A DNA stretch of 64,000 nt from Magnolia sinica (taxonomy: Eukaryota; Streptophyta; Magnoliopsida; Magnoliales; Magnoliaceae). Positions 7,328 through 32,905 of the stretch are shown one piece after another. Each line of letters opens with the position of its first letter. Within the stretch, counting starts at the first letter, position 1. Location of the stretch: assembly GCF_029962835.1 (NCBI RefSeq), contig NC_080581.1:25186001-25250000 (forward strand). The letters are read 5' to 3'. The position numbers were made by a program, and so were the translations under genes. The notes beneath the pieces were generated by a model, which searched no databases, was not told where the DNA came from, and was given only the letters and a program-made list of their open reading frames with translations.

Positions 7328-7866
7328 TCTAATTCATACCGTCCATTTACTTTTTCAAGTCATCTTAGACTAATATACCAGAAAATGTGGCAAATGGACC
7401 ATACCACGGAAAACTGCATTGCTAATGACGCCAACCGATGAAGCCTTCCTATGGCTCACGCTGATGCTTATTTGCCATCCAATCCGTTGTTCATAAGGTC
7501 AAATAGAACGCTGATGAAAGGAAAACACAAATTTGATGAACTTGAACAAAACTTCCGGAGCTCCCAGGAAGTTTTTAACTGTGGGCTTTCAATCCACAGT
7601 TTTATGGCCCACTTGGGCCTTGATCTAAATGATCTAGTAAAATGGATGCACTGCGTGAACTAAGACTATATATCCCAGTGGCCCCACAGAGCCCCTACTT
7701 ATACCAGACGCTGGCTAATGACCCCAATAACAGCCAACTAGCCGGTGTCAAAGCTCCATAGGCTCCACCATGATGCATGTGCTTCATTCAAGCCGTCCAT
7801 TCATTTTTCCAGCTTATTTTAATGGATGATGTTAAAAAATGAAAAATATCCAAATCACAGGTGGAA
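7328..7866. mobile_element. Two partial copies of the dominant foldback MITE
   Basis: A diverged copy spans about 7328-7735 (CATACCGTCCATTTAC ... GGACCATACCACGG ... CCCCACAGAGCCCC). A left-half copy spans about 7764-7866 (CTCCACCATGATGCATGTG ... ATATCCAAATCACAGGTGGA). The second copy runs without a break into the 21-bp array that begins at 7861, at the place where the reference family would continue with CCACACCAC. Confidence 0.65.
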
Positions 7867-8310
7867 ATTGAGCAAGGCAAATTGGAAATTGAGTGAGGCA
7901 AACTATAAATTGAGTGAGGCAAAAGAGAAATTGAGTGAAGCAAACGGAAATTAAGCATGGCAAAGTAGAAATCGAATGAGGCAAAGAGAAAATTGAGCGA
8001 AGTAAACTGGAAATTAAGCTAGGCAAACTGAAAATTGAGCGAGGCAAACATGAAATTGAGCAAGGCATACATGAAATTGAGCGAGGCAAACTGAAAATTG
8101 AGCGAGGCAAATATGAAATTGAACAAGGCATACATGAAATTGAGTGAGGCAAACTGAAAATTGAGCGAGGCAAACTGAAAATTCAGCAAGGCAAACATGA
8201 AATTAAGCGAGGCAAACTGGAAATTAAGCGAGGCAACTGAAAATTGAGCGAAGAAAACTGAAAATTTAGCGAGGCAAATTGGAAATTCAGCTAGGCAAAC
8301 TAGAAATTGA
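7861..8310. repeat. 21-bp minisatellite array A1
   Basis: About 21 tandem copies of a 21-bp unit of the type GAGGCAAACTGGAAATTGAG. The orientation shown on + is the GCAAACT sense. The unit length is a multiple of three, so the complementary strand stays open for 113 codons as a repeated proline- and cysteine-containing heptad. That frame is a repeat artefact. Confidence 0.85.
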
Positions 8311-8495
8311 ATTCACATCATACTGTGCCCATCAGTTAAGAAGCCATGTTCGAAAAATAACAAGTACGTAATGGATTGACAAACAACCTGTATCAAGGTA
8401 ACACCAGACTGATAACTAATGTGGCTCCTATGAAGTTCCACATCAGACCAGGTCTGCCAGGTTACCAGGATGAGCTGACCATTGACAAACACATT

Positions 8496-8770
8496 CATTC
8501 CAATGAAGCTCGTTCAATTTCATTTAAAGTTCATTCAATTTCATGTTAGGCTTGCTCAATTTCCTTTAATGCTCATTGAATTTCATGTTTGCCTCACTAA
8601 ATTTCATGTTTGCCTCGTTGAATTTCATATTTACCTTACTTAATTTCATGTTTGCCTTAGTGAAATTCATGGTTGCCTCGCTCAATTTCCTTTGATGCTC
8701 CCTGAATTGCAAGTTTGTGTCGTTGAATTTTCAATTTGTCTCGTTCAATTTCCTTTTTGCCTCGCTCAAA
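8496..8770. repeat. 21-bp minisatellite array A2, inverted relative to A1
   Basis: The same 21-bp family in the opposite orientation (TTTCATGTTTGCCTCGCTCA), about 13 diverged copies. A1 and A2 face each other across a non-repetitive spacer of about 185 bp (8311-8495). Confidence 0.8.
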
Positions 8771-8779
8771 CTAGAAAAG

Positions 8780-8848
8780 TTGATTTAGCCAACCAACCTA
8801 GTAGATTTGCAAGATTCCATCAGATCGATGGCTGAAAGTCCATTTTAT
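8780..8848. repeat. Conserved 65-bp flank module (copy 1)
   Basis: GATTTAGCCAACCAACCTAG followed by AAGATTCCATCAGATCGATG and GAAAGTCCATTTTATT. The same module occurs at 12091-12160, and inverted at 14197-14265 and 20662-20714. In the first three places it lies beside a 21-bp array, which suggests it belongs to the transposon that carries the arrays. Confidence 0.7.
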
Positions 8849-9164
8849 TTTCGTTTTTACTATAAATATTAAGTTTTAGTTTGATTAGGCTACCCCAGCA
8901 TTCTTCTCAACTTAAACTTGAAAACTTTAAACCCATGTGATTAATCACCATAGAAGATGTTCATATTAGTTTTTTGGATACAATGTGAACCACGTCATAG
9001 AGGGACCAATCAATGATTACGAATGTTTTAATGGGGAGTCGACTTTGAGTATACTGTGGAAATGCTCGAGCCAAGGATCCTATAATTCCTAAATCCGTAC
9101 ATCATCCTCTCTTTCGGGTCATCCGTGGATATAAAGAAACTAAAGGCAGCGATTCACGCGATGC
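8849..9164. other. Unassigned spacer between 21-bp arrays
   Basis: About 315 bp with no recognised gene or repeat, separating two blocks of the 21-bp minisatellite. Confidence 0.45.
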
Positions 9165-9866
9165 ATGAAATTCAACGAGGAAAACAGAAAATTGAGCAAG
9201 GCAAACAGGAAATTGAGCGAGGCAAATATGAAATTTCATGTTAGCCTCGCTCAATTTCATGTTAGCCTAACTCAATTTCTAATTTGTCTTGCTCAATTTC
9301 ATGTTTGCGTCACTGAATTTCCTGTTTGCTTCGCTTAAGTTTTAGTTTGTCTCGCTCAATTTCATGTTTGCCTCGCTCAATTTCCAGTTTGCCTCGCTCA
9401 ATTTCTAGTTTGCCTTGCTTAATTTCCTGTTTACCTTGCTCAATTTCTAATTTGCCTCGCTCAATTTCATGTTTGCCTCGCTCAATTTTCAGTTTGCAAT
9501 TTCCAGTTTGCCTCGCTCAAGTTCATATTTGCCTCACTCAATTTTCAGTTTTCCTCGCTCAATTTAAAGTTGGCCTCAATCAATTTTCTCTTTGCCTTGC
9601 TTAATTTCAAGTTTGTATTGCTCAATTTCATGTTTGCCTTGCTGAATTTTCAGTCTGCCTTGATCAATTTCCTGTTTGCCTCGCTCAATTTTCATTTTGC
9701 CTTGCTCAATTTCATGTTTACCTTGCTCAATTTGAAGTTTGCCTCGCTCAATTTCATGTTATCCTCGCTCAATTTCATGTTTGTCTTAATCAATTTCCAA
9801 TTTGCCTCGCTGAATTCCCAGTTTGCCTCGCTCAATTTCCAGTTTGCCTCGCTAACTTTTCAGGTC
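9165..9866. repeat. 21-bp minisatellite array A3 with internal inversion
   Basis: About three units read in the GCAAAC sense (9165-9236). They are followed directly by about 30 units in the opposite sense (TTTGCCTCGCTCAATTTC) to about 9866, making a head-to-head junction near 9236. Two + frames stay open (92 and 130 codons) purely because of the 21-bp periodicity. Confidence 0.85.
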
Positions 9867-10185
9867 CGTGAATTCGAAGTAGTTATCCCCTTAGGAAGAC
9901 GGGTATATGGAATGGGGGGTTTTGAGGGAATTGGGTTTGAAAGGAAGAATTTTAGTAAATAAAGAGCTTAGAGATGAAGAGATTTAGGAAAACAGAGTTT
10001 GATGGGGAGGATTGGATGCAGGGAATAGGCTTATAGGGGAGTTTTTGGGTTTTGAGGGAGATGGAATACGAAAATTTTGATATGGGAGTGTTTGGGAGCT
10101 TAAAAAAAGGGCTAAAATGGCTAAAAGGGGCCTTACACGTGTGTATAGGACTCCACTAAACTCAAGTCCCAACGCAGTTGCGTCG
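9867..10185. other. Unassigned sequence right of array A3
   Basis: G-rich on the + strand (GGGTTTTGAGGGAATTGGG, GATGGGGAGGATTGG). No feature was recognised. The 159-codon - strand frame over this stretch and the following one has no recognisable domain. Confidence 0.4.
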
Positions 10186-10460
10186 AACTGGCGGTGGCCT
10201 TGCATCCGCCAATGGCTATGCTGCTTATGGCTACAGTTATAATCCATAGTGATAGGTTTACAAAATGGACAATGCATCAATGCCGAATGCAAAGTATTTT
10301 TGTCTAAAAATCGTGTGTCCGTACAAAATGGTTTAGTTTTAGAAAATAAAGTTTGGGAGCATTTGGAATTGACAGTAAGTAAAAGGTGAGGTAAGGTGAG
10401 GTCCACGGTCGTAAATTTCTTTCGTGCATCGAATGGGACGAGCGCGCAGATGACATGGCA
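10186..10460. mobile_element. Transposon-end module (copy 2) with GCTACGG palindrome
   Basis: A decayed palindrome TATGGCTACAGTTATAATCC at 10229-10252 is followed by CGTGTGTCCGTACAAAATGG and AAAAGGTGAGG ... GGTCCACGGTCGTAAATTTC. This is the same order of blocks as at bases 1-240. The pattern supports a shared transposon end; the superfamily is undetermined. Confidence 0.5.
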
Positions 10461-10519
10461 CATATGGTCCGATTATGGGAGCGTGGCAGCGTGTATAGAC
10501 GGACTGATCCTGGAACGCC

Positions 10520-10965
10520 GTGTTCCACCTTGATGTATATGATTTATCCACACTGTCTATCCATAGATCAATTTTAGAAATCATTCGAGAAAGGATATAG
10601 ATCGAAGTTTACATGAGCCACACCACTGAAACAGTGGGGATTGAATTCACACCGTTGAAAATTTTTTGTGGCCACGGAAGTTTTGATCAAGCTGATATTT
10701 GTGTTTTCCCTTCATCCAATCAAGATGATATTTGTTTTTTCCCTTCATCCAGTCTAGACCTTATGAACAGGTTTGTTGGCAAATAAACATCATGGTGGCC
10801 CTGGAAAGGTTTCAACAGTGCCGTCATTATCACCCATGCTTCCTTTGTTACCGCTCATTTCACCTTTGGACCTGTCTCATTTTTGCTTCATACCTTAAAA
10901 TGATATATTAAAATGGATGGACGGCATGGATAAAACAAATACATCACAGTGGACTGACAGGCCCA
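10520..10965. mobile_element. Foldback MITE (dominant family)
   Basis: The left arm TTCCACCTTGATGTATATG ... CCACACTGTCTATCC pairs with the right arm GGATGGACGGCATGGATAAA ... ACATCACAGTGGACTG. Between them lie family phrases GCCACACCACTGAAACAG and GATCAAGCTGATATTTGTG, with one local duplication of the GATGATATTTGT block. Confidence 0.6.
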
Positions 10966-11099
10966 TGCGAGTACAGTCCGTCTCAGTAGGGGTAAGACGC
11001 AATCCGTGTCCATCCCTCACACGCACCACTCCAGTGGATCGCGAGTGACACGCGGGCATTAATGCGGTTGTGAAACGCGGATCACACGAGGCCTGGTTT

Positions 11100-11245
11100 A
11101 CCCCAAAATTCAAGCGAGAAATTTACGACTGTGGACCCTACCTTTTATCCAGCGGTTTTTACGAAGCAATACAAACTTAGAATACACACTTGGACCTCCT
11201 CGTACGGAGTCAGAATTTCAGGATGAAAATACCCCTCCTTTTGAC
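11100..11245. mobile_element. Transposon-end module (inverted copy)
   Basis: GCGAGAAATTTACGACTGTG, CTTTTATCCAGCGGTTTTTA, GACCTCCTCGTACGGAGTC and CAGGATGAAAATACCCCTCC appear here in this order. The reverse complement of all four is found at 33310-33450. It is also the inverted counterpart of the module at 1-240. Confidence 0.65.
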
Positions 11246-11755
11246 GGAAACGGATTCGATACTCCCCCTACCACCAGCTAATGCGGACGGTCGGTGGTCT
11301 GTGGACCCCACCATGTTGTATACTTTTCATCCATGCCGTCCATATATTTTTCCAGATCATTTTATGGTATGAGACCAAAATTAGGTATATCCAAATCTCA
11401 ATTGTACCACATTACAGGAAACAAATTTGAATGAGCGTCAACCATTAGAAACTCAGGTGGAGCCCACTATGATGTTTGTGAGAAATCCTCCCCGTCTAAG
11501 TTCATTTATAAGCTCACAAAGACATGGATGAATAGGAAAAACAAATTTCATAATGATCCAAAACTTGTGTAACCCCTAAAAGGGTTGCAATGGTAGACGT
11601 TCAATTCCCCATTGCCTTTTCCAGTGTGGTCCACTTGATTGCTAGATCTGTCTTATTTTTCACCTCAAGCCTTAATTCGAGTTCGCCAAATCGATTGACG
11701 GTTTGGATATAACGCATACCTCATAATGGGACCCACAAAAATCGGTGGGGATTAC
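11246..11755. mobile_element. Foldback MITE (dominant family)
   Basis: The left end GGAAACGGATTCGATACTCC ... GTGGACCCCACCATGTTG is close to the reference copy at 6787. The right arm is more diverged (GACGGTTTGGATATAACGC ... CATAATGGGACCCAC). It abuts the transposon-end module on its left. Confidence 0.6.
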
Positions 11756-12090
11756 AATAGGGAAAAAGAAGGAAAAAAAAAAGGAAGCCAGCGACCGGGT
11801 CAGAGCTGGGTCTATTGCTACGGATTATAACCGTAGCCAAAACTGAGTGCTATGCACTTTTTTATTTTTTTTATTTTTTTATTTTTATTTTTATTTTTAT
11901 TTTTTACATTGAGAACGTTTTCCCCCTTACATTTTTCTATAATGCATAATTATGTAAATATGTATATATAAGTATATAAAAATATTTTTCTATCTTTTAA
12001 TTCATTTCTTTGTCTATTTATTTAACAAGCATATCTCCTAAACTAGAATGATTTACTTAACTTGCCACATATGATTTTGGGGTAGGAGAA

Positions 12091-12160
12091 GCTAATTTAG
12101 CCAATCAACCTAGTTATTTTTCAAGATTCCATCGGGTCATTGGTCGAAAATCCATTTCAT
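12091..12160. repeat. Conserved 65-bp flank module (copy 2)
   Basis: GCTAATTTAGCCAATCAACC, AAGATTCCATCGGGTCATTG and GAAAATCCATTTCATTC, the same module as at 8780-8848, here inside the left inverted arm of the 11.8-14.6 kb element. Confidence 0.7.
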
Positions 12161-12650
12161 TCAGTTCATGGTCAATTTGAATCACTTCGTGGTCAAACTA
12201 GAAATTCACCAGGGCAAACATGAAATTGAGCAAGGCAAATATGAAATTGAGCAGGGAAAACTAGAAAGAACTTCATTTTTATTATATTTCAATATAGGAC
12301 TTATTACATTAGTTTATTATATTTCAATTACGTGTTAATATTTTTGTTATTACATTAGTTTATTATTTCAATTACGTGCCAATCCATTACGTGCTAATAT
12401 TTTTGTTATCACATTAGTTTATTATATTTCAATATAGGACTTGTTTTTGTTATCTATGATTTTATTAATTATATACGTGATTATTCATCATAAAGAATTT
12501 CATTTTTTTCTTTAAAAAACTAAGCTAAAATATAGGACTACTCCTTTAAAAAGTCATATAGCATAGCACGCAGTCTATTTGGGAGAGAAATCCGGTATAT
12601 CTTGTTAGCTTGAGTCCTTGGAAATGATGTGGACAAATGAGACCTGACAT

Positions 12651-13912
12651 TTGCCCCGTTGTTTTTCTTGTTTGCCCCGCTCATATTTCAGTTTGTCTCG
12701 CTATTTTTCTAGTTTGTCCCGCTGTTTTTCTTGTTTGCCCCGCTGTTTTTCTAGTTTGCCTCGCTCATATTTCAATTTGCCCCGCCGTTTTTCTAGTTTG
12801 CCCCGCTCATATTTCAATTTGTCCCGCTGTTTTTCTAGTTTGCCCCGCTGTTTTTCTTGTTTGTCCCGCTCATGTTTCAGTTTGTCCCGCTGTATTTCTA
12901 GTTTGCCCCGCTCATATTTCAATTTGCCCCGCTGTTTTTCTAGTTTGCCCCGCTCATATTTCAGTTTGCCCCACTGTTTTTCTTGTTTGCCTCGCTCATG
13001 TTTCAGTTTGCCCCGCTGTATTTCTAGTTTGCCCCGCTCATATTTCAGTTTGCCCCGCTCATATTTCAATTTGCCCCGCTGTTTTTCTAGTTTGCCCCGC
13101 TCATATTTCAGTTTGCTCCGTTGTTTTTCTAGTTTGCCCCGCTCATATTTCAATTTGCCCCGCTGTTTTTCTAGTTTGCCCCGCTCATATTTCAATTTGC
13201 CCCGCTGTTTTTCTAGTTTGCCTCGCTGTTTTTCTAGCTTGCCCCACTCATAATTCAGTTTGCCCCGCTCATATTTCAGTTTGCCCCGCTCATATTTCAA
13301 TTTGCCCCGCTGTTTTTCTAGTTTGCCCCGCTCATATTTCAGTTTGCTCCGTTGTTTTTCTAGTTTGCCCGCTCATATTTCAATTTGCCCATTGTTTTTC
13401 TAGTTTGCCCCGCTCATATTTCAATTTGCCCATTGTTTTTCTAGTTTGCCACTGCTCATATTTGATTTGCCTCATTGTTTTCTAGTTTGCCCGCTCATAT
13501 TTCGATTTGCCCCATTGTTTTTCTAGCTTGCCCCACTCATAATTCAGTTTGCCCGCTCATATTTCATTTGGCCCATTGTTTTTCTAGTTTGCCCGCTCAT
13601 AATGCAGTTTGCCCCACTATTTTTCTTGCCCATTGTTTTCTAGTTTGCCCGCTCATATTTCAATTTGCCCAGCTGTTTTAAGTTTGCCCCGTTGTTTTTC
13701 TAGTTTGCCCCGTTATTTTTCTAGTTTACCCCGCTCATATTTCAGTTTGACCCGCTGTTTTTCTAGTTTGCCCCGCTCGTATTTCAGTTTGCTCAGCTGT
13801 TTTTCTAGTTTGCCCCTCTCATATTTCAGTCTGCCCCGCTGTTTTCATGGTTGCTTAACTCATTTTCATGTTTGCCCCGTTGAATTTCTAATTTGCCCTG
13901 CTCAATTTCATG
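12651..13912. repeat. 21-bp minisatellite array A5 with 42-bp higher-order unit
   Basis: About 58 copies of the 21-bp unit. Two variants, GCCCCGCTGTTTTTCTAGTT (A) and GCCCCGCTCATATTTCAGTT (B), alternate in runs such as A-B-A-B, making a 42-bp higher-order repeat. Towards the right end single-base deletions break the period. Two + frames (282 and 200 codons) and one - frame (199 codons, heptads GKLEKQR and GKLKYER) are open at once, as expected for a repeat with a period divisible by three. I do not call a protein-coding gene. A short outlying piece lies at 12187-12270. Confidence 0.9.
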
Positions 13913-14086
13913 TACGGCTGAAAGTTGAGCGGGTTCAACCCGACCGACCCGACATTGGGTTGGGCTCGGGCAGGATATATCGGTCCCGATCTCTAGCTTG
14001 GGCTATACAAACACCAACCTGATAAAACTTGGGTTGGGTTAGGCTTGAGCACCAACCCGTACCAACTCGCCCAACTTCCAGCCCTA
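13913..14086. mobile_element. hAT-type MITE, 174 bp
   Basis: TIRs TACGGCTGAAAGTTGAGC (left) and, complemented, TAGGGCTGGAAGTTGGGC (right), flanked by perfect 8-bp duplications ATTTCATG at 13905-13912 and 14087-14094. The target is inside a 21-bp unit, so this insertion postdates the array. The interior has the words CAACCCGACC and GGGTTGGGCTCGGG. Confidence 0.88.
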
Positions 14087-14165
14087 ATTTCATGTTTGCC
14101 CTGCTCAATTTCATGTTTGCCCCATTGAATTTCTAGTTTGTCCCACCGAATTTTTAGTTTGACCG
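14082..14165. repeat. 21-bp minisatellite array A6 (remainder of A5)
   Basis: About four units (TTTCATGTTTGCCCTGCTCA) continue the array on the far side of the hAT MITE. The next sequence is the right inverted arm of the surrounding element. Confidence 0.75.
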
Positions 14166-14501
14166 CGAAGTGATTGAAATTGACCATGAACTGAATTAAG
14201 TGGATTTTCGACCATCGACCCGATGGAATCTTGGAAAATAACTACATTGGTTGGCTAAATTAGCTTCTCCTACCCCAAAATCATGTGGCAAGTTAAGTAA
14301 ATCATTCTAGTTTAGGAGATATGCTTGTTAAATAAATAGACAAAGAAATGAATTAAAAGATAGAAAAATATTTTTATATACTTATATATACATATTTACA
14401 TAATTATTACGATAAAAAAATGTAAGGGGGAAAATGTTCTCCATGTAAAAAATAAAAATAAAAAAAAATAAAAAGAGAAAAGAGAAAAAAATGCATAACA
14501 C

Positions 14502-14700
14502 TACAGCTATGGCTACGGTTATAATCCGTAGCGATAGGCCGAGCTCTGACCCGGTCGACCGGGTCCCAATTTGCTGGTTTTGTTTTTAAGTAAGCTGGCC
14601 TATGGCTACGGATTTAGCAGCCTTTATGGCTACGGATTATAACCGTAGCCATAGGTATCGCGAATCCGTAGCCATAGGTACCTTGGTCCAGGGACTTGAT
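14502..14700. repeat. Cluster of GCTACGG palindromes
   Basis: Two complete palindromes (14507-14538 and 14626-14654, core GCTACGGWTWTAAYCCGTAGC) and two half-sites (about 14601-14612 and 14672-14687, TCCGTAGCCATAGGTA) lie within 200 bp. Complete copies also occur at 30-58 and 11817-11837, and a decayed one at 10229. Dense short palindromes of this kind are typical of subterminal regions of plant DNA transposons. Confidence 0.6.
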
Positions 14701-15222: not shown

Positions 15223-15423
15223 GATAATGTACAATAGTTAGGCCTCAAGTCCAATTTAGGCATGATTTTGCTGACATGTGAGTGGTGTAATCATGCATCA
15301 GTGAGTTATGCCCTATTCTCGGCAATAAATACTCGAACATGTCTTATTTCACTCGGTATTGGATAGTGGCATATTTGTATGCATGCTTAGCGGGCTCATC
15401 TAGCACTACAAGCTCTAGATGTA

Positions 15424-15842
15424 GCGAGGCAAACTAGAAAATCAGTGGGGGAAACTAGAAAATAAGCGGGGCAAACTAGAAGATCAACGGGGCAAGCATG
15501 AAAATGAGCGAGTCAATCATGAAAATGAGCGGGTCAAGCATGAAAATGAGCGGACCAAACTAGAAAATCAGTGGTGCAAGCATGAAAATGAGCAGGTCAA
15601 TCATGAAAATGAGCGGGTCAAGCATAAAAATGAATGGGGCAAAGTAGAAAATCAGCGGGGCAAACTGAATTATGAGCGGGACAAACTAGAAAAACAGCGG
15701 GGTAAACTAGAAGATCAGCGGGGCAAGCATGAAAATGAACGGGGCAAACTAGAAAATCAGCTGGGCAAACATGAAAATCAGGGGGGGAAACATGAAATTG
15801 ACCGGGGCAAACATGGAATTGAGTGGGGCAAACTAGAAATTT
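15424..15842. repeat. 21-bp minisatellite array A7
   Basis: About 20 copies in the GCAAACTAGAAAATCA sense, with variants GCAAGCATGAAAATGA and GCAAACATGAAAATCA. Right of it, unrelated sequence resumes at about 15843. Confidence 0.85.
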
Positions 15843-16770
15843 CACTGCTAAACTATGGAGGTGTCTCAAAAGAATACTTTATGGATCTTCTGAGGAATGC
15901 TTTGAATCATGCTCGAAATGTTCATTTCAATAAGCACATTGCAGCTGTCTGGCTTCAATAAATGCCCAATGTGATGAATGTTGCTCTGGTTGCTTTGGTA
16001 GTTCACATGGTTGGAGTTGGTTATAAAGAGTGCTCCATGTAGAAACCTCTGCCATATACTTCCTAAAAGCGAACCCAAATTCTTAGGAGAAGACTAAGAT
16101 AATAATGGTGATGATGATGCATTTATAAATTCATACACATATACAAACATACATACTTATAGAAATATATAGATATGCATATGCACATACAGATACAAAT
16201 ACAGGCATGCGGTTTTGATTGTATATGGTGATCACACAATGCAATTCTTGAGATTCCAGAGAAGTTCATCTTTTTCATAGCCAACAATCATGGCCACTTA
16301 AGACCTATAACTTGCCATGAAAGAGAAAAAGTCCTCACTTTATTTTCAAAATTGCAACAAACCCAAGACATCATTTCAGTAGCAATAGTGTAGGATACGA
16401 TGTAAAGTAAAAACCCACTACACCTCGTGAATCAATGTAATTTCAAAATGAAATTACGCATGCATATATGACTGATTTAGATAGTGGACTCAATCCAATT
16501 CCAAACAACACATTCCATCCAATTCCATTGCAAAATTCTTTTAAAAAATTCCGAATCAAGTTGAGAAGTATTAACAATATCTACTAATCAATGCAAAAAT
16601 GATACCTATCAAGTTGAGATGTGACATGCTAAAGTATGCATATTACACCATAACTCTTTCAAGTTGTTTTGAATTTTCAGTAACATTCCTCCATATGATC
16701 ATGCAACAAGAAAGGCTTGTTATTTGATTAGTTGCTCTTGAATTTAACAGGGACTCAACGTTTTAATCAT
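15843..16770. other. Unassigned intergenic sequence
   Basis: About 930 bp with simple AT/CA-rich runs (16090-16210). No gene or transposon end was recognised. Confidence 0.45.
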
Positions 16771-16779: not shown

Positions 16780-17630
16780 ATGTTTGATCACAAACAAACA
16801 TCACTGTTGGGCCTAATATGGTTTCAACGGTGGAAATCATTATGCCCACTATTTCTCGTGGTATGATCTACTTGATCTCCTGATATGCTTCAATTTGGGG
16901 CTTAACCCTTTAAATTAGATGGAATAACGGATGGACGACATGGATATACTACATACATTCAATGTGGGCCCAACTGAGTTTACTCAGTACGATGGGAGCG
17001 TATTGACTAGCTCAGTACGCAATCCGATTAGGCTTGCTACGCCCCACAATGGTGTTTTATTTGTAATACATCATGTTCATCGGATTATGTAATACCCCTC
17101 CGTTTTTATCGTAATATGTATACACCAAAACCTCATATGTGGAAGGGAACCTAGACATAGAGGGAGGGAACTTAGACATTCAGCGGGACAAACATGAAAT
17201 TCAGTGGGGAAAACATGAAATTCAGTGGGGAAAACATGAAATTCAGCGGAGCAAACTGGAAAATCAGCGGGGGAAACTAGGAAATCAGCGGGGCAAACTA
17301 GGAAATCAGTCGGGAAAACTGAAAAATTAGTGGGGAAAATTGGAAAATCAGCGGGGCAAACTGGAAAATCAACGGGGCAAACTAGAAAATCAGCGGGATA
17401 AATTGAAAAATTAGCGGGGGAAATTAGAAAATCAACGGGGTAAACTGAAAAATCAGCAAGGCAAACTAGGATATCAGCGGGGCAAACATGAAAATGAGCG
17501 GGACAAACATGAAAATCATTCTGCCTACTGTTTCTCATAGTATGATCCACTTGATCTTTTGATATGCTTCAATTTGGGGCTCAACCCCTTAAAATAGATG
17601 GAAAAATGGATGGCTTAGATATCAAACTTA
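16780..17630. mobile_element. Foldback-MITE macro-unit carrying 21-bp array A8
   Basis: This single copy has the architecture of the units repeated at 25.6-32.9 kb: a MITE right arm (GATATGCTTCAATTTGGGGC ... CAATGTGGGCCCAACTGAG), CAGTACGCAATCCGATTAGG, TGTAATACATCATGTTCATC, CATATGTGGAAGGGAACC, then about 17 units of the 21-bp repeat (about 17150-17515). A second, truncated arm follows (17518-17610). One + and one - frame stay open through the array. Confidence 0.75.
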
Positions 17631-17673: not shown

Positions 17674-17949
17674 TTAAAGTATTTTGTCTCTTAGTGTACT
17701 CGTAGTGCAGCAATTCTTCGGTACAGTAAGATCTCCAGTCTTAAGACCGGTAATGAGGGCGAAGTCCATCTCCGAAAACTGCACTTGCCTCCCCCTGATC
17801 TCAAATACTGAATCACCTTTGTATCTTAATAAAAGAACGTGAAATAAAGCCCCTATAAATCTAAAAGATGTAACATGCAATAGAAATGAGAAAGGGGATT
17901 GCTTAAACAGATTTAGGCGATTATTGTGCTTCTCCACTCCACCCTTCAC
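17674..17949 (-). pseudogene. DUF1985-like fragment, probable MULE remnant
   Basis: This 91-codon frame contains LLLRYKGDSVFEIRGRQVQF followed by SEMDFALITGLKTGD. That resembles the core of the DUF1985 domain, in which a strand-turn-strand G-R-x-V-x-F is followed by a F-A-L-I-T-G-L-x-x-G signature. In plants, DUF1985 is common in proteins with a C-terminal Ulp1 (C48) peptidase, many of which are carried by Mutator-like transposons. Here only the domain core is present; there is no peptidase downstream and no TIR was recognised. The frame ends after LRDKIL. It lies next to the 21-bp macro-unit, but a link is inference. I treat it as a transposon-derived fragment rather than a functional gene. 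Confidence 0.6.
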
Positions 17950-19540
17950 CTTGTCAAACCACCATGTCAGTATACACCTGGATGTTGGGTTGGAGATAAC
18001 GGCAGAATATTCGTCGCCTGCAGAGATGAATTGAAAAACATATCAAACATAAAATTCACAAGATAAACATAGTGTACAAAATTAGACATAATTGAAAACA
18101 ATGTATCATTTCATTAATTTGAACAAGCTTCATATGAAATAGAAATAGAAATTGAGCGGGAAAATACCGAAAATTGTATGAGACAAGCTATCAACATTAG
18201 CTATAAATTGATCGGGGCAATCTGCAAATTGTACGAGGCAAAGTGGATATTGAATAGGGCAAGCTAGACATTGACTGCTGGAAGGGCTGTTTTCAGTTTC
18301 CTTTTATTGATTGCTGGAACGGCCGTTTTCTCTCAATTGGTTGAAGATCTCTCTTCTTAGATCTGTATCCATTCATTTTTGGAGGCAAAAACTCATTTAA
18401 GTTAATTAAGTACTATCATTTGCCCTCCATTTTTGTTGTATATCAATCCACATCTCGTAAGCTTGTGGATAGTGTGATCTGCGCAATTTTTTCTTGATAT
18501 AGATGTAGATCTTGTTAACTCGTGGATAGAGTCTCCTTTTTTACTGGATACTGATTTAGATTGTGTTGAACTCAGATATGTATTACATTTTTCTTGAAGA
18601 GGTTGAATCTTTTAAATTATCTTCCTCCCAACAGGTGAAAATCTTCTTTTCTTTGCTCCAACATTTGGGATTTTTTCTTTTAATGACTGCTAGTGATTAG
18701 AGTTAGTCCATTGTTCCCATACATACCTAACCAAGTGAAAAACATAAAGAGAAATTTCCAAATGTACGACCAGTATATGGCCCACAACCTTTTAAAGCCC
18801 ATTTCTTTTTAGTTGCCAAGAATACTCCCCAGACATACGGACGCCCTTGTACATGATGAAAATGCCCCTGCTCTAAAACAGATGCCCCTTCCAATGCTGT
18901 CAGCCCCATCTCCACCAAAAATCTAATTATTTCTTCTCTCCTCTCCCTGCTCCTTCATCCTATCCGACCAAATCTGATTCTCCGATTACTTCTCCCCCTC
19001 TGTGACTGTCCTCCTTCCAGTAAAACTCTCCCTTTTCTTCATTTTTTTTATTTCCCCTTTGTCCGGTCGAGAATACAGACCCCACCAAGTTATTGATAAG
19101 TCCAAATCCTGTGATTTTTAAATTTGAATTGAGGCTTAACTATTGCGCATTATCTAGAAAGGACAATGACATCTGGATAGCCAATATTTTGAAGACATTG
19201 CCTGATTGTTTTGGAAGTGGAGTAAGATGATTTGGGACCACGGTTGTTCAAGTTTGAGTTGATGTGGTGAAAGTGAAGGGATTCTCAAACTTGGTGAATG
19301 AATGATGGTTCTCTGGTTCTCTTCTTTTATAAAATTTCATCATCTTAAAACAAAGAGAGTTCTAATTGCCTATGTCGTTTTGTTCTATTTAAAAACATCA
19401 TAACGTTCAATTCTATAGATATTAGAAATGGCAATTGGATTGTGCATTTGTCGGAACGGTCACTTGATATCTACCATTTGACGACCTTGGGCAACTGTGA
19501 ATTAGATTGTTAAAGCATGATAGAAATGATGTAGATCCAG
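17950..19540. other. Intergenic, with a degenerate 21-bp array
   Basis: About 18145-18275 holds decayed units of the 21-bp family (AAATTGAGCGGGAAAATACC, AATTGTACGAGGCAAAGTG). The remainder includes a duplicated phrase (TAGATGTAGATCTTGTTAACTCGTGGATAGAG-like near 18430-18520) and a CT-rich stretch near 18930-19060. No gene was recognised. Confidence 0.4.
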
Positions 19541-23664: not shown

Positions 23665-23719
<55 letters not shown>

Positions 23720-23735
23720 TATATTATATATAATT
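23480..23735. repeat. Compound AT/TG microsatellite
   Basis: Long TATATA and ATAATATTATAT runs are followed by about 18 TG dinucleotides (about 23683-23714). It lies inside the 4.18-kb LTR. It would fold back on itself and is a likely site of replication slippage. Confidence 0.85.
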
Positions 23736-23744
23736 TATTGATGG

Positions 23745-24125: not shown

Positions 24126-25581
24126 TATACCAAAGGTCCATTGCAATGTGCAATCCCGACATGATTTATGACAGTCGTGCCTTGGGAGCAATGTTGGTTT
24201 GACGTCCACATTGCAAGTACAATGTTGGTTAAATGTCCGCATTATGCCTTTCCCTAGGGCCCATTGGCGGGCCCATGCTGTTATGTGCAGGTCGTCTAAG
24301 CCCACCTTCGTTATGCATGTCATCCATCCTATATAGCATGTTTAAATTCCATAATTCATGATCATATGCATCATATGTATGCTTGATATGAGAGATGACT
24401 GATCATAGCATAAGTCTTTGGGTAGATTGTTTAGGGACTCCCGCATAGGGGTGTTGCCCTACATGAGCGCACGATACGCGCAGGATTGCTGCATGACTGA
24501 ATAGTGTGATTCATGCATTCGCATTGTGTGATATGGTTACTCTACGCCCTAGCGACATCAGGGCCATAGCCTCCACAGACGCATCGTGGTTGGCAGGATT
24601 GGATCTGGAAATCTGTTCTACATGGGGTGCGATAGATATCCTGGGTGAAAGTCCCTAAACCCTTATGGTACCAGGAGGTTGCTCCAACGCCTAGGCCGAG
24701 TGGGTGCATGAGCGCGGGGTGCCGATACCAGACGGTTGCGCTTTTCACCGTGTCGTGGTCGGTTGGAAGGGGGTGTGGCCTTACCCGCCCGAGAGTAGGG
24801 GGCAATGCTAGGCTGACCAGCTCGAGGAATGGGTCCGCTATTGACGAGCCGAGCCCGATATTGGCGGGCGGATAGTGAGGTCTTTTCCACTCACCTTATT
24901 GCGCGCGATGGGGCGGCAATCGGCTTGGAGTGTACTAGACCCCGGTGATATTCCAGATTTGAGCCGTATTGACATGTGGACTTAGATGAGGATTTGTATG
25001 CTTGACTTGCATTTTGCATTGCATGGCCTTGGTATGGCCGACATCATTCTTTGCACCGCATGGCCTTGGTACGGCTAATGGGATTCTTAGCATTCATCAG
25101 CATGTTCCGCATTACTCTGATACTGCATAACTACATTATCACCTTGAGCATACACTTTCATCACCCTCTAAGCTTTCTATAAGCTTATGCACGACCGTTG
25201 CGTGCAGGTGACGTTGGATCGCAGCAGCGCTGAGGCTTGGACGCGTGGCTGATCTTCTTTTGGAGTTTTGGTCTATCTTCATTGTATTTCCCTTATACTC
25301 ATTGTACCTGTAAAGTTTTTGATTATAGTGAAAATGTGATGGAGTTTTTGGTCGTTGTTTGTGGGTTATGCCTTTGGTTATGCTTATTACGAATCAAACT
25401 GATGTTAAAAATCCTCCTTGTAGCATCCCAGGATCGGAACCTGGCAAATGGGCGATGGGAGCCGAGAATGGGGTTCTACGGAGGCTGTCGGCGCCAGATT
25501 CGGCGATCGGGAATTTTGTGAGCCCGGTTTCCGAGTTTGGGGCGTGACAGAAACAATGGTGATTGACCATATATTAAAAAC

Positions 25582-28500
25582 GTACAATGGGAACGTACTA
25601 CTAACTAAGTACGCAATCCGATTACGCTTGCTACGCCCCATGATGGTGTTTTATTTGTAATACATCATATTCATCAGATTATGTAATTCCCATCCGTTTT
25701 CATCGCAATATGTATACACCAAAGCCCCATATGTGGAAGGGAACCTAGACATTGAGGGTGGACACCTAGACATTCAGCGGGACAAACCTGAAATTGAACG
25801 GGGCAAACTAGAAGATCAACGGGGGAGACTAGAAGATCAACGGGGCAAACTAGAAGATCAACGGGGCAAACTAAAAGATCAGCGGGGCAAACTAGAAGAT
25901 CAGCGGGGCAAACTTAACAAATAATTTCGTAGCTTGAGCCAAAAAATCTAAACATATCCAATGTTCAAATGGAGCACACCACATGAAATTTTGAGTTGAA
26001 CTTCTAGTGTTGATCATTTCTTAGGGGCCACGGAAGTTTTGGTTCAAGCTTACAATTGTGTTTTCTATTAATCCATATATGTATGATCTTGTGGTAGAAA
26101 TCATTATGCCCACTGTTTTCCACGGTATGATCCACTTGATCTTTGATTTGCTTCAATTTGGGAGCTAGACCCCTCAAAATAAATGAAAAACCGGATGGAC
26201 GGTGTGGATATATTACATACATTCATTGTGGGCCCAACTGAGTTTACATAGTACAATGGGAACGTACTACTAACTCAGTACGCAATCCGATTACGTTTGC
26301 TACGCCCCATGATGGTCTTTTATTTGTAATATATCATGTTCATCGGATTATGTAATTCCCATCCGTTTTCATCGCAATATGTATACACCAAAGCCCCATA
26401 TGTGGAAGGGAACCTAGACATTGAGGGTGGACACCTAGACATTCAGCAAAATCCTCCTTGTAGGATCCCAGGATAGGAAGAGACTAGAAGATCAGCGGGG
26501 CAAACTAGAAGATCAGCGGGGCAAACTTAATAAATAATTTCGTAGCTTGAGCCGAAAAATCTAAACATATCCAATGTTCAAATGGAGCACCCCACATGAA
26601 ATTTTGAGTTGAACTTCTAGTGTTGATCATTTCTTAGGGGCCACGGAAGTTTTGGTTCAAGCTTACAATTGTGTTTTTGATTATATGTATGATCTTGTGG
26701 TAGAAATCATTATGCCCACTGTTTCCATGGTATGATCCACTTGATCTTTTGATATGCTTCAATTTGGGGGCTAGACCCCTCAAAATAAATGAAAAATTGG
26801 ATGGACGGTGTGGATATATTACATACATTCATTGTGGGCCCAACTGAGTTTACATAGTATAATGGGAACGTACTACTAACTCAGTACGCAATTCGATTAC
26901 GCTTGCTACGCCCCATGATGGTGTTTTATTTGTAATACATCATGTTCATAGGATTATGTAATTCCCATCCGTTTTCATCGCAATATGTATACACCAAAGC
27001 CTCATATGTGGAAGGGAACCTAGACATTGAGGGTGGAAACCTAGACATTCAGCGAGACAAATCTGAAATTGAACGAGGCAAACTAGAAGATCAGCGGGGG
27101 AGACTAGAAGATCAGCGGGGCAAACTAGAAGATCAGCGGGGGAGACTAGAAGATCAGTGGAGCAAACTAAAAGATCAGCGGGACAAACCTGAAATTGAAC
27201 GGGGCAAACTAGAAGATCAGCGGGGGAGACTAGAAGATCAGCGGGGCAAACTAGAAGATCAGCGGGGGAGACTAGAAGATCAGTGGAGCAAACTAGAAGA
27301 TCAGCGGGGCAAACTAGAAGATCAGCGGGGCAAACTTAACAAATAATTTCGTAGCTTGAGCCGAAAAATGTAAACATATCCAATGTTCAAATGGACCACA
27401 CCACATGAAATTTTGAGTTGAACTTCTAATGTTAATCATTTCTTAGGGGCCACAGAAGTTTTGGTTCAAGCTTACAATTGTGTTTTCTGTTTCGCCATAT
27501 ATGTATGATCTTGTGGTAGAAATCATTATGCCCACTGTTTCCCACGGTATGATCCACTTGATCTTTTGATATGCTTCAATTTGGGGGCTAGACCCCTCAA
27601 AATAAATGAAAAACCAAATGGACGGTGTGGATATATTACATACATTCATTGTGGGCCTAACTGAGTTTACATAGTACAATGGGAACGTACTACTAACTCA
27701 GTACGCAATCCGATTACGTTTGCTACGCCCCATGATGGTCTTTTATTTGTAATATATCATGTTCATCGGATTATGTAATTCCCATCCGTTTTCATCGCAA
27801 TATGTATACACCAAAGCCCCATATGTGGAAGGGAACCTAGACATTGAGGGTAGACACCTAGACATTCAGCGGGACAAACCTGAAATTGAACGGGGCAAAC
27901 TAGAAGATCAGCGGGGGAGACTAGAAGATCAGCGGGGCAAACTAGAAGATCAGCGGGGCAAACTTAACAAATAATTTCGTAGCTTGAGCCGAAAAATCTA
28001 AACATATCCAATGTTCAAATGGAGCACACCACATGAAATTTTGAGTTGAACTTCTAGTGTTGATCATTTCTTAGGGGCCACGGAAGTTTTGGTTCAAGCT
28101 TACAATTGTGTTTTTGATTATATGTATGATCTTGTGGTAGAAATCATTATGCCCACTGTTTTTCACGGTATGATCCACTTGATCTTTTGATATGCTTCAA
28201 TTTGGGGGCTAGACCCCTCAAAATAAATGAAAAATCGGATGGACGGTGTGGATATATTACATACATTCATTGTGGGCCCAACTGAGTTTACATAGTACAA
28301 TGGGAACGTACTACTAACTCAGTACGCAATTCGATTACGCTTGCTACGCCCCATGATGGTGTTTTATTTGTAATACATCATGTTCATAGGATTATGTAAT
28401 TCCCATCCGTTTTCATCGCAATATGTATACACCAAAGCCTCATATGTGGAAGGGAACCTAGACATTGAGGGTGGACACCTAGACATTCAGCGGGACAAAC

Positions 28501-29043
28501 CTGAAATTGAACGGGGCAAACTAGAAGATCAGCGGGGGAGACTAGAAGATCAGCGGGGCAAACTAGAAGATCAGCGGGGCAAACTTAACAAATAATTTCG
28601 TAGCTTGAGCCGAAAAATCTAAACATATCCAATGTTCAAATGGAGCACACCACATGAAATTTTGAGTTGAACTTCTAGTGTTGATCATTTCTTAGGGGCC
28701 ACAGAAGTTTTGGTTCAAGCTTACAATTGTGTTTTCTATTAATCCATATATGTATGATTTTGTGAATAGGTTTGATAACAAACAAATATCACTGTTGGGC
28801 CGGCTATGGTTTCGGTGTAGAAATCATTATGCCCACTGTTTCCCATGGTATGATCCACTTGATCTTTTGATATGCTTCGATTTGGGGGCTAGACCCCTCA
28901 AAATAAATGAAAAAACAGATGGACGGTGTGAATATATGACATATATTCATTGTGGGCCCAACTGAGTTTACATAGTACAATGGGAACGTACTACTAACTC
29001 AGTACGCAATCCGATTATGCTTGCTACGCCCTATGATGGTGTT
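25582..29043. repeat. Macro-tandem array of foldback-MITE units with 21-bp arrays
   Basis: The landmark GTACAATGGGAACGTACTAC recurs at 25582, 26251, 26858, 27674, 28295 and 28975, giving units of 669, 607, 816, 621 and 680 bp plus a sixth that continues at 32134. Each unit contains CAGTACGCAATCCGATTACG, GTAATACATCATGTTCATC, CATATGTGGAAGGGAACCTA, a 21-bp array (heptads GHLDIQR, DKPEIER, GKLEDQR), CGTAGCTTGAGCCGAAAAAT, ACACCACATGAAATTTTGAG and a MITE right arm ending CATTGTGGGCCCAACTGAG. Length differences come mainly from the number of 21-bp copies, plus presence or absence of a 60-bp piece before AAATCATTATGCCC. Open frames of 63-134 codons are repeat artefacts. Confidence 0.92.
26447..26479. 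repeat. Filler patch in macro-unit 2 matching the neighbouring LTR
   Basis: AAAATCCTCCTTGTAGGATC continuing CCAGGATAGGA replaces most of the 21-bp array of unit 2. It matches 25407-25438 inside the adjacent solo LTR with two mismatches. No other unit has it. Confidence 0.7.
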
Positions 29044-32000
29044 TGTAATGACCTTGGAATTTCTGTGCTAATCTTTCCTTAAGTAGTTATTTTTGGGGTA
29101 ATTAGCGCTTTACTCGATTGCTTGTGAAATTGGCATCAATCACTTTAAATTGTATCTGCATGGCTCTAAACGTGTAGATTAGTGAGCACTATGTTACTCT
29201 GAAATCTGGGATCCATCGCTAAATCCAGTTGTTCTGGAAAATTTTTGGAAGATCTGGATCGGACCTAGGCGGCGCGTCGAAAGTCCGATGGCGATGATCT
29301 TAGGCTGTTGCGGTCACCGAGTTGGGCTTGATCTTCACCTCGAAATCAAGTCGATCCGATGTTCTGGGTCGATTTGATTGAGTTCGGAGTGAAGAGTGTG
29401 AGAACGATTGGAAATTATTAAGTTTTTATGAAATCTGAGTCGTGTCGCTTGCGCGATGATTTTAAGCTATCTGACCGTTGGATTCTGACCCAATTTCACC
29501 CTCTGATCAGGATGGTTGGCCCAGGCATATCCTAGTGCTTGTGGACCTGATCGAGATTCCGTGACCGTTGAATTGAGTGTGGTCCGCCACGGCTGATCTG
29601 AAGAGCCGGTCGGTATGAAATCTCAGCCTGACCTAGATCCATGGTCAGTGAGCTTAAGTCCGACCTTTCGTGGTTATAGGCCTACCAGAAGTGCTTCGTT
29701 GGATCGAGAAAGGCTTACTTTGGTTATAACCTAAGTATACCTTATCCCTAGGGTTATTTTCATCAAGTAAAGGCCTATTTATAGTCCTTAAACCCTAGTC
29801 CTCTTTTCCATACGATTTTCTCTAACCCTAGCTTGGAAAGAGAGTGGAAAAGAGAGAGAAAGTGAGAGAGATAAGTTGGTGAATCACCTTGGATTCTTCC
29901 TTGTTCTTCTTTATCTTTGAACCTTCACTTTGAATTGTTCTTCTGACGGTTCTGAGTTCTTTTAGGGTAAGTTAAACCTAACCCTAACCTGTGTTAGAGC
30001 TTAGATTAGACTTGGTGTTGTTGTATCTCATTTCTATCTTTGTTTTAGGGTATTCTTTCGCCGTTGACGAAGACAACTCGTCTAAATCAGTTCGGTGGTT
30101 CTTTCTTTGCTTAAGGTGCGGACTTTAAGTATATAGGTTATAGTTTTCAAGGCTTTCAACGCCAGTTAGTGATTTATTCTTGTTATGGATGAGATTTCAC
30201 ATGCCAAATGTTGTGTTTACATTGCTTTCCTGATATGCATGTGCTATATTGAGATTTGTATATTCTAAGTGTATTTATAAAGTACCGTATACGTATAAAA
30301 TACGCACTTGTATTTGCCATGATTATTTGTCATGTATGTATGCTAGATGCATGTATGACGACTCCTTGGTAAAAGGAATTGTCTAAGTGCATGTATTCCA
30401 ACATACGCCATGTATGTTGTTCCATGTATGCTAAGTGTTTGTAGAAATGCATGAATGATCTAAGTGTAACTTATTACACTAATTGTGGGCGTTGAGAAGT
30501 GATTCTCAATACTCCCATTGATGCGCATGATTTCCTTTATGCAGTTACATTCCATATTATTTAAATTCAAGCATCTCCTATGCTTACATTTATGTTAAGT
30601 TGATATTCTTCAGAGGTGTATGTACCATGATTTGAGTTGTTGTTCCATTACTGTTTTACATTTCATATGAGTATCTGTAGTAGCGTAAGGTGTTTGGGAC
30701 TATGCCTTAGTCCAGAAAATCGGTAATTGACCCTATGTTCGTGGTTGAGATTGCTTTCGCCACGTATGACGTATTAGACGAACCCGAGCCGTATTAGAGT
30801 TGGCGGCAGTGGTTTGGCCACGCGGAGTGTTTGCGCACTCTATGTTGTTCAATTCAACGTGCGCTCGTGCTAGTCGAGTTCGTCAAGTAACCCGATTGTC
30901 CGATGTATGTTTACCATGTATGGACGCTATTGTTTGAATCTATGATACCAAACTCACCGGTGAAATCCTATTAACTATGGTACTTGATCCACTAAGACTC
31001 ATGAGCCGGACATGGTGGTATGGGACACCGTGGTCGAGCTGTCGGCCTACGCTGGGGTGACGAGCCTCCCCGTAGTGACCAATGAGCAACTTAACTCGTA
31101 AGCCGATTATGGTGGTATGGGACACTATATTCGTGCTGTCGGCCTACATTGATTGGTGACGAGCCCTTTGTAGTGACCTCGAGCATACCTGGATACCGCA
31201 ACGAGGTGACGAGCCGAACTGTGGTAGTAAAGGCATGAAAGGCGTGCATTGATTGGTGACGAGCCCTTTGCTACAACCTTAAACATATGATCGTATGAGA
31301 TGTCTAGGATTGACGACCCTAGTATGGATTACTGTTTGGATGGTGATATGAGGAAGGTATCTTAGCTTCCCAATCCGGCTGTGTGAAATGGACTAATAAC
31401 AACTCGGTAATCATATCCATCCACCGCATTTGCATGGGCTTTGTAGATGTGGCGCACTTTGAGGCGATGTCATGCGTAACGTAAGATGAAGACGCTGAGG
31501 GTGTACGCGTGAGGGCACGCATCATATTGCATTCATCCTTGCATTAACAAGAGTACTTAGGATTTATTTGATTGTCTTACTTTATCATTACTGTTTGATT
31601 GAACTGATAACATATTAACCAGTGCCTTATTGTTCCACTGAGTTGATCACTCACTTCCACGTTTCTGGGGCGGTGTTAAACACCCACCAGACTCTGTCTT
31701 AGGATCTGATGTTGCAGATGTGGATGCGACGTCTGAGGCATAGCGGGAGCTGGATGACGACGAGGCTGCCTTCTCCTATATGCAGTTTTCAGACGGGTTC
31801 TAGCGAGCCTCGGTCTGATGCGCGGGATCTCTGGGATTATTTTGGGAACTGAAATGATGTAATTGATACTTATAATTTTTGTTAAATAACAATTTCATAC
31901 GATATGGCTTGTATATGTAATTCAGGGATTTACACTTGTACACATTTTACTATAAGTCTTCCGCTTGCTTTATTCACTTATCCCTGAATCATATCTGTGT

Positions 32001-32133
32001 TTTGGCTTAATCTATTCCATGTTATATGCACTAATACAGTCAACATACATCCATCATTAAATATGTTGCATAAGTGATGTTTTGGAACTCGGGAGCTGAG
32101 TTATGCTCGACCCCCGAATTTCAGGGCGTTACA
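29044..32133 (+). mobile_element. Solo LTR (3.09 kb) of a probable Ty3/gypsy element
   Basis: The element starts TGTAATGACCTTGGAATTTC and ends GAATTTCAGGGCGTTACA; the two ends are imperfect inverted repeats. It is flanked by perfect 5-bp duplications GTGTT at 29039-29043 and 32134-32138. It splits macro-unit 6, whose sequence GATGGTGTTTTATTTG resumes exactly after it. A TATA-like TATTTATA at 29776-29783 is followed by a CT/AG-rich leader (about 29800-29880), as expected for the U3-R boundary. No gag-pol is present, so it is a solo LTR or a non-coding derivative. The lineage (Tat/Athila-like) is inferred from LTR length and end sequence only. Confidence 0.82.
29776..29783 (+). promoter_or_regulatory. 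TATA-like box of the 3.09-kb LTR
   Basis: TATTTATA about 730 bp into the LTR, followed about 30 bp later by CCTCTTTTCC and a purine-rich GAGAGTGGAAAAGAGAGAG leader. The placement fits the start of the R region. Activity is not shown. Confidence 0.4.
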
Positions 32134-32905
32134 GTGTTTTATTTGTAATACATCATGTTCATCGGATTATGTAATGTCCATCCATTTTCGTCGCAATATG
32201 TATACACCAAAGCCCGATATGTGGAAGGGAACCTAGACATTGAGGGAGGACACCTAGACATTCAGTGAGACAAACATGAAATTGAACGGGGCAAACTAGA
32301 AGATCAGCGGAGGAGACTAGAAGATCAGCGGGGCAAACTAGAAGATCAGCGGGGGAAACTAGAAGATCAGCGGGGGAGAGTAGAAGATCAGCGGGGGAGA
32401 CTAGAAGATCAGCGGGGCAAATTGAAAAATTAGTTGGGCAAACTAGAAAATCAGTGGGGCAAACTGAAAAATTAGCGAGAGAATTTTGAAAATCAACGGG
32501 GCAAACATGAAAATCAGTGGGGCAAACTTAACAAATAATTTCGTAGCTGGAGCTGAAAATTTTAAACATATCCAATGTTGAAATGGACCACACCACATGA
32601 AATTTTGAATTGAACTTCTAATGGTGATCATTTCTTAGGGGCCACAGAAATTTTGGATCAATCTTATAATTGTGTTTTCTATTAATCCATATATGTATGA
32701 TCTTATGAATAGGTTTGATAACAAACAAACATCATTGTTGGGCTGACTATGGTTTCGGCGGTGGAAATCATTATGCCCACTGTTTCCCGTGGTATGATGC
32801 ATTTGATCTTTTGATCTGCTTCAATATGGGGCTCAACCCCTTAAAATAGATGGAAAAATGGATGGACAGCATGAATAGTAAATTCAATGTGGGCCCAACT
32901 GAGTT
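32134..32905. repeat. Continuation of macro-unit 6
   Basis: After the LTR the unit resumes with GTGTTTTATTTGTAATAC and carries about 13 copies of the 21-bp repeat (about 32245-32530, including GGGGAGACTAGAAGATCAGC). It then has the MITE core and right arm to AATGTGGGCCCAACTGAG. This unit keeps the 60-bp piece (GGTTTGATAACAAACAAAC) that units 1-4 lack. Confidence 0.85.

Follow-up and report, generated by a model that had tools for sequence, protein, structure and literature searches.

A 64,000-nt stretch of the Magnolia sinica genome (NC_080581.1, positions 25,186,001-25,250,000 of the forward strand; host genome 1.84 Gb), here called the window, contains many arrays of a 21-bp tandem repeat that can be read in one frame as a protein heptad of the GKLE type. 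Are these arrays the remains of a coding segment, or are they non-coding repeats belonging to a transposon? The simpler reading of the original prediction, a transposon-borne minisatellite with a period that is a multiple of three, was supported, the carrier being a Mutator-like element (MULE) with identifiable termini and a 9-bp duplication. The anatomy, meaning element boundaries, target-site duplications, genes and array placement, is as good as certain. With a probability of about 0.5, we propose that a MULE family with terminal inverted repeats (TIR-MULE) contains the arrays as integral, non-coding repeat regions and that they work like the target repeats of the VANC proteins in Arabidopsis VANDAL elements.

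A profile scan of the window detected 17 blocks of the 21-bp unit on both strands (12649-13913 being counted as two), where at least a dozen had been claimed, and Tandem Repeats Finder together with a wrap-around aligner recovered an array at every coordinate listed in that claim. The block previously given as 9165-9866 does hold the repeat but consists of two head-to-head arrays, 9164-9235 (+) and 9232-9863 (-), and a degenerate block at 18201-18274 is an addition. A degenerate unit pattern allowing up to three mismatches matched 76 times in the window and 0 times in 100 dinucleotide shuffles. In the 12 window arrays that were aligned, units diverge by 11-22% from the consensus of their own array, and the consensus heptads on one strand read GKLEIER, GKHEIER, GKLEKQR/GKLKYER, GKLENQR, GKLENER, GKLEIQR or GKLEDQR. 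The most frequent unit type was CGA in 4/4 of the leftmost (A) arrays and CGG in 8/8 of the other window arrays tested.

The carrier was identified by comparing the window with itself after masking the arrays. A pair of inverted termini of 138 bp was found with a perfect 9-bp duplication (AATTCAAGC) immediately outside, and 11116-33442 is therefore one Mutator-type element of 22,327 bp. Thirteen of the 17 blocks are located within this element, while the four A arrays (7862-9863) are located outside it. The family displays the features of MULEs, namely 9-bp duplications, a MuDR-type transposase and long terminal inverted repeats, and belongs to the TIR-MULE subclass. In two other copies the terminal inverted repeats measure 121 bp (83%) and 127 bp (87%). 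A truncated DUF1985 exon alone remains of the genes in the window copy, and its protein shares 91% identity with that of a fuller copy; the window yielded no coiled-coil, Ulp1 or transposase segment. The A arrays probably belong to an older, decayed relative. A decayed terminus at 10294-10420 (E 3.5e-5) is probably the right end of that relative; its left end was not found. A further terminus of the family of the 22-kb element lies at the left edge of the window (85-213, minus strand, E 6.9e-19).

Two foldback arms enclose part of the arrays in the left portion of the element. A genome search with the arm gave 2617 candidates at first look, of which 40 were scored. The flanks of the arms looked homologous by eye in 5/5 copies compared, and an element terminus lies 0.5-0.8 kb outside the arms on the left side of the window element and in two other copies. 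An independent foldback transposon at 11.8-14.6 kb was considered and rejected, since the flanks are common to the copies and termini with duplications are located outside the arms.

Relatives of the element were detected elsewhere in the genome. Searching with the arrays yielded 2479 first-look candidates, 40 of them scored (loose counts), and 20 loci of 9.9 kb (L009-L028) were taken around the best array matches. A terminus was present within the locus in 18/20 and a DUF1985 gene in 12/20, both shares being conditional on the choice by array similarity. Two of these loci were extended to both ends, giving a C12 copy of 22.0 kb and a C11 copy of 23.2 kb, with perfect 9-bp target-site duplications (TCCGAGCAT and ATCAAACAA, respectively). 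By tblastn, both copies contain MuDR-type transposase, DUF1985, coiled-coil and Ulp1 segments in a common order and strand, and their arrays are placed between the genes and the ends, with no overlap with the matched gene segments. The Pfam scan covered six open reading frames (ORFs), among them the C12 transposase and DUF1985, the C11 SWIM part and the L009 Ulp1. The C12 transposase matched PF03108 (5e-15), PF00872 (4.2e-8) and PF10551 (1.6e-6), and PF04434 (3.6e-7) was also among the transposase domain matches of the fuller copies; the C12 DUF1985 matched PF09331 (8.7e-15), and the L009 Ulp1, a segment that lies within both bounded copies, matched PF02902 (1.5e-20). The coiled-coil ORF gave no Pfam match. 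The C11 transposase is 96-98% identical in protein to that of the C12 copy. The DUF1985/coiled-coil/Ulp1 gene of the fuller copies resembles the VANC/KIU genes of Arabidopsis MULEs. Two shorter complete copies of 6.9 and 7.8 kb retain arrays; neither the transposase nor the DUF1985/Ulp1 queries matched them. The duplication of the 7.8-kb copy is perfect (ATTTTATAG), and that of the 6.9-kb copy is T9 and uninformative.

Both fuller copies also contain a third, internal terminus between the DUF1985 and transposase parts (loci L015+L034+L036 and L037+L021+L035). Each is a composite element, bounded by one target-site duplication common to its outer ends. The insertion of a DUF1985 element into a separate transposase element is not supported, because the outermost termini share one 9-bp duplication and the DUF1985 part alone does not.

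The association was also approached from the termini. A terminus-only search of the genome gave 1985 first-look candidates, of which 40 were scored (a loose count), and ten of the 40 were selected, avoiding places already sampled. All of these 10 loci contained an array within the inner 2.2 kb, vs. 0/13 background tiles of the window. The first array started 0.9-1.2 kb inside the terminus, and the GKLE strand was oriented towards the terminus in 10/10.

The original prediction had noted a GKLE frame that stays open over long distances. This holds for some window arrays, which are free of stops, and fails for several others, which contain many (Table 1). Openness is not special in this case, since a period that is a multiple of three lets several consensus frames be open throughout. 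The longest ORF over 12.6-13.5 kb is antisense (285 aa), and the GKLE frame there reaches 223 aa; array ORFs span 122-285 aa, and two draw weak matches to coiled-coil families, all below the curated cut-offs. Pooled codon tests used 133 arrays of at least five units from loci L009-L037 (1761 unit rows). The array consensus was open in the GKLE frame in 132/133, in frame -2 in 132/133 and in frame +2 in 109/133. Indels were not multiples of three in 134 of 141 cases, 46 of the 133 arrays carry one, and in-frame stops are present in 71. Substitutions, whose equality at the three codon positions had been put forward as the mark of a coincidental heptad, were only roughly equal (1760/1283/1998). 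Column permutations gave an expectation of 192 stops for the 137 observed in the GKLE frame (0/200 as low) and of 855 synonymous changes for the 940 observed (P=0.02); the 133 arrays are mutually related, and these values are thus not true probabilities. By themselves, these two departures would point towards coding. Frames -2 (34 stops vs. 72 expected) and +2 (530 vs. 382) deviate equally or more, so that such deviations are not frame-specific. Column-specific rates can produce such differences without translation. The dN/dS of the element genes, meant as a positive control for the codon tests, was 0.54-1.04, an uninformative result calculated from few differences.

Dyad counts, which assume that TAG and CAA both derive from CAG, compared paired changes; from CAG, either product arises through an identical change on one or the other strand. 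In the CAG dyad, TAG (stop) and CAA (silent) were found in 58 and 63 units (P=0.72) and in 40 and 49 arrays (P=0.40), and in the window arrays in 8 and 19 units and in 6 and 7 arrays. In the CGA dyad, the two sets together gave TGA in 20 units and CAA in 32 (P=0.13). As a control, the CGG dyad, in which both changes are non-synonymous, was asymmetric by units (TGG 121, CAG 73) and nearly even by arrays (63 and 53); relative to this control, a shortage of TAG is seen in units (P=0.014) and not in arrays (P=0.21). In the CTAG dyad, the change of GAA to AAA (non-synonymous; 194 units, 66 arrays) was far commoner than the silent CTA to TTA (31 units, 25 arrays), contrary to what coding constraint would produce. 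With dyads as uneven as these, at most a weak avoidance of stops can be read from them. Within the window, all arrays together contain 32 stops vs. 53 (cell, P 0/300) or 50 (column, P=0.027) expected. In the A arrays, 23 stops stand against an expectation of 24.5, and B2 has 4 vs. 16 (cell, 0/300) and 15 (column, P 0.09). Array C has 0 stops vs. 3.4-3.6 (P 0.017-0.063) and an excess of silent changes (P 0.013-0.053), the silent changes of array D gave P 0.02-0.11, and the M arrays behaved as expected.

No conventional heptad-coding gene was present among the matches listed for a heptad query over the genome (150 scored of 19184 first-look candidates). Many of these matches contain stops, and the longest open frame among them, 249 aa, has a stop inside the match. 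The 21-bp unit had 0 exact matches in the prokaryote collection and 0 in the viral one. The DUF1985/Ulp1 gene itself encodes heptads of the REELKKE type (coiled coil). The DNA of this coiled coil was, on either strand, no more similar to the array unit than its own codon-shuffled versions, and it is therefore not a demonstrated source of the unit.

It appears very improbable that the heptad is translated, or ever was, as a coiled-coil segment that a transposon picked up. This alternative, raised in the original prediction, could draw on the open consensuses, the pooled stop deficit with slightly more synonymous changes, the shortage of stops in the window, the low unit count of TAG against the control dyad, and array C, which is stop-free and runs in frame into a fragment of an RNA-dependent RNA polymerase (RdRP). 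It found no support in the frame-shifting nature of nearly all indels, the stops in more than half of the arrays and the similar frequencies of TAG and CAA, and it is at odds with the behavior of frames -2 and +2, the CTAG dyad, the A arrays, the interrupted 249-aa frame and the dissimilar coiled-coil DNA of the element. An absence of coding constraint on the arrays is thus strongly indicated; most likely the GKLE frame is not maintained at present and the heptad reading is coincidental, with a small probability left for a faint trace of constraint in the distant past.

The RdRP-like stretch behind array C was analyzed separately. A genome search with it gave 277 first-look candidates, of which 150 were scored, and matches at 74-86% included host loci with RdRP family matches of their own (C13:15522253, C13:15473744 and C11:47714916). 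C13:15522253 aligns with the fragment over 35 residues and has no array in front. The fragment occurs at most 7 kb from 20/40 foldback-arm copies (16 elements), often about 4 kb away, when 25 of the 150 listed fragment matches were compared with all 40 scored arm copies. The matching RdRP loci and the recurrence near the foldback arms indicate that the stretch is a host-gene fragment carried by the element family. A search of solved structures with the 39-aa fragment returned two unconvincing chains (best E 0.49).

Table 1. Features of the window. The strand of an array is its GKLE strand; stops are counted in the GKLE frame followed from one end, and after a frame-shift the counts refer to the shifted frame.
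Feature	Position	Strand	Stops	Remarks
Target-site duplication, left	11107-11115			9 bp, AATTCAAGC; identical to 33443-33451
Left terminal inverted repeat	11116-11253	+		138 bp, 89% identical to the right one
Right terminal inverted repeat	33305-33442	-		138 bp
Target-site duplication, right	33443-33451			9 bp, AATTCAAGC; perfect match to the left copy
Left foldback arm	11792-12178	+		about 91.5% identical to 14177-14557
Right foldback arm	14177-14557	-		
Truncated DUF1985 exon	17683-18042	-		
Decayed terminus	10294-10420	-		
Captured host RdRP fragment	15842-15958	+		39 codons; Pfam RdRP E 0.026, below cut-off
Array A1	7862-8310	+	10	outside the 22-kb element
Array A2	8509-8769	-	7	outside the 22-kb element
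Array A3p	9164-9235	+	0	outside the 22-kb element
Array A3m	9232-9863	-	12	head to head with A3p
Array B1	12191-12267	+		
Array B2	12650-13910	-	16	42-bp higher-order unit, 19 indels
Array B3	14086-14164	-	0	probably B2 continued beyond an insertion
Array C	15423-15839	+	0	GKLE frame open, in frame with the RdRP fragment after it
Array D	17145-17518	+	2	
Array E	18201-18274	+		degenerate
Array M1, macro-unit 1	25739-25914	+	0	
Array M2, macro-unit 2	26483-26527	+		2.1 units, 45 bp; left out of the stop counts
Array M3, macro-unit 3	27020-27336	+	0	
Array M4, macro-unit 4	27858-27964	+	0	
Array M5, macro-unit 5	28460-28585	+	0	
Array M6, macro-unit 6	32243-32528	+	3	left part of the macro-unit cut off by the insertion 29044-32133

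Some further structures concern the arrays or their surroundings. By eye, B2 and B3 look like a single array interrupted by an insertion of about 170 bp (13914-14085). The insertion is a repeat with inverted ends and has AATTTCATGT (10 bp; by eye) on either side, a sequence that also belongs to the array unit, and a stretch resembling it is present in an ORF of locus L017. In the macro-repeat at 25582-32907, units made of an array and some 520 bp of flanking sequence follow one another in tandem. Identity between the right flanks is 94-98% across macro-units 1 to 4 and lower in the final two copies. The macro-repeat is interrupted at 29044-32133 by a 3.1-kb insertion that starts with TGTAATG, ends with CGTTACA, is accompanied by a 5-bp duplication, GTGTT (by eye), and is probably a solo long terminal repeat. 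Outside the element, a 302-aa ORF at 60303-61208 (minus strand) matches UDP-glycosyltransferase (PF00201, E 4.3e-22).

The known systems closest to the Magnolia family are other plant MULEs, compared here as far as the available portions of the cited papers describe them. Publications already describe MULEs that carry Ulp1 genes, and also VANC targets arranged as tandem repeats. VANC proteins of Arabidopsis VANDAL elements carry DUF1985 (PMC5735166); in non-coding regions of the element they bind short motifs, and they trigger a loss of methylation (PMC5735166, PMC10398659). Their targets often occur as tandem repeats, both in introns and upstream of the transposase gene (PMC5735166), and the repeat units diverge jointly (PMC5735166, PMC10398659). 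A review describes VANC genes that carry Ulp1 (KIU) as acting like VANC (PMC13317346). The Magnolia family shares with VANDAL a Mutator-like transposase, a DUF1985 gene (with Ulp1, as in KIU), tandem repeats in non-coding parts (PMC5735166, PMC10398659), and a unit type that is common to neighboring arrays and differs between relatives. It differs in its inverted termini, its 21-bp unit without VANC motifs and the position of Ulp1 downstream of DUF1985. The KAONASHI/ULP-MULEs of Arabidopsis, grapevine, melon and rice likewise combine a MuDR-like transposase and an Ulp1-type protease gene in one element (PMC2528002, PMC13317346). In contrast to these, the Magnolia copies measure 22-23 kb, have a third terminus in their interior and contain numerous 21-bp arrays, a type of array that the literature compared, in the parts available, does not mention (PMC2528002, PMC13317346). 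VANDAL and the Arabidopsis KI-MULEs are reported to have no terminal inverted repeats (PMC2528002, PMC13317346), which are present in the Magnolia family; among grapevine ULP-MULEs, both inverted-repeat and non-inverted-repeat kinds exist (PMC2528002). The Tetris foldback element of Drosophila virilis also has inverted arms with internal tandem repeats, which occur as separate arrays as well, but in Magnolia the foldback is an internal module rather than the ends of a mobile unit, and the repeat is 21 bp instead of about 220 bp (PMC4079207). A literature search, with subscription papers largely outside it, retrieved neither the unit or heptad string nor a description of the whole combination.

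By analogy with VANC, the arrays may be targets of the element's own DUF1985 protein with a role in anti-silencing, a claim that we hold at somewhat less than even odds. The DUF1985 protein encoded by the element would bind the repeated 21-bp unit and, once bound, would clear silencing marks from its own element as well as from non-autonomous relatives, the window copy among them. Relief from silencing would make the family mobile. Unequal exchange or slippage would change both copy number and unit type over time, leaving different relatives with different unit variants. A more specific version is put forward tentatively: the arrays would be binding sites of a protein of the VANC/KIU kind, the CGA and CGG types would represent successive co-evolving targets, and the RdRP fragment would provide a second link to silencing.

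Several observations weigh against this explanation. The best agreement of the unit with the published VANC21 and VANC6 motifs was 6/9 and 6/8, no better than chance (shuffle P 0.56 and 0.25), and DUF287, the second VANC domain, was not found in the six scanned ORFs at Pfam E values up to 0.01, exons not being modelled. The presence of terminal inverted repeats sets the family apart from VANDAL and KI-MULEs as described. Some of the terminus-picked loci are 94-98% alike, and the ten as a set are probably young copies, since they were taken from the top 40 scores among 1985 candidates; the set includes no old copies. Retention of arrays in gene-less copies is equally expected of a passive passenger, and the anti-silencing role is argued from likeness to VANC.

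The main rival is indeed such a passenger, a functionless minisatellite that arose by slippage or unequal exchange in an ancestral MULE and was copied along with the element. We regard it as possible, if on the doubtful side. The copy number of neighboring macro-units varies freely (2 to 15 units), stops and frame-shifting indels are common and the published VANC motifs are not in the unit, all of which it would explain. It agrees less well with arrays that occupy the stretches flanking the same genes in the C12 and C11 copies, with the 10/10 terminus-picked loci and with the persistence of arrays in gene-less copies. Unit length is also better kept in the 21-bp arrays of the window than in five further minisatellites located there (22:698 vs. 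18:202 indels per substitution, P=0.002), although one array dominates this comparison with 19 of the 22 indels and the five controls range from 1:61 to 5:25.

Two other functions were considered, and both appear unlikely. The arrays could be subterminal repeats bound by the MuDR-type transposase to pair the element ends. The 0.9-1.2 kb distance and uniform orientation of the first array in the terminus-picked loci would suit such a role, as would a unit of 21 bp, which corresponds to two turns of DNA. Arrays are also located beside genes far from the ends, however, two copies of the foldback type have their terminus-nearest arrays reversed, and the maize transposase MURA binds within the terminal inverted repeats. 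Alternatively, inverted arrays and foldback arms could form a hairpin source of small RNAs that silences the family. The head-to-head arrays at 9164-9863 and the arrays between inverted arms at 11792-14557 have the geometry for this, and tandem repeats have been discussed as small-RNA sources and as targets of RNA-directed DNA methylation (PMC10398659), but arrays near one terminus of the gene-bearing copies mostly share the same orientation.

For gene annotation it matters that a long open heptad frame can arise from a period that is a multiple of three. If the reading of the arrays as targets of the family's own DUF1985 protein is true, one genome would offer a large natural set of targets in which the age of the counter-defence and the joint change of protein and target could be followed. 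The VANC/KIU system would then extend from the non-inverted-repeat MULEs of Arabidopsis to giant inverted-repeat MULEs in another plant lineage.

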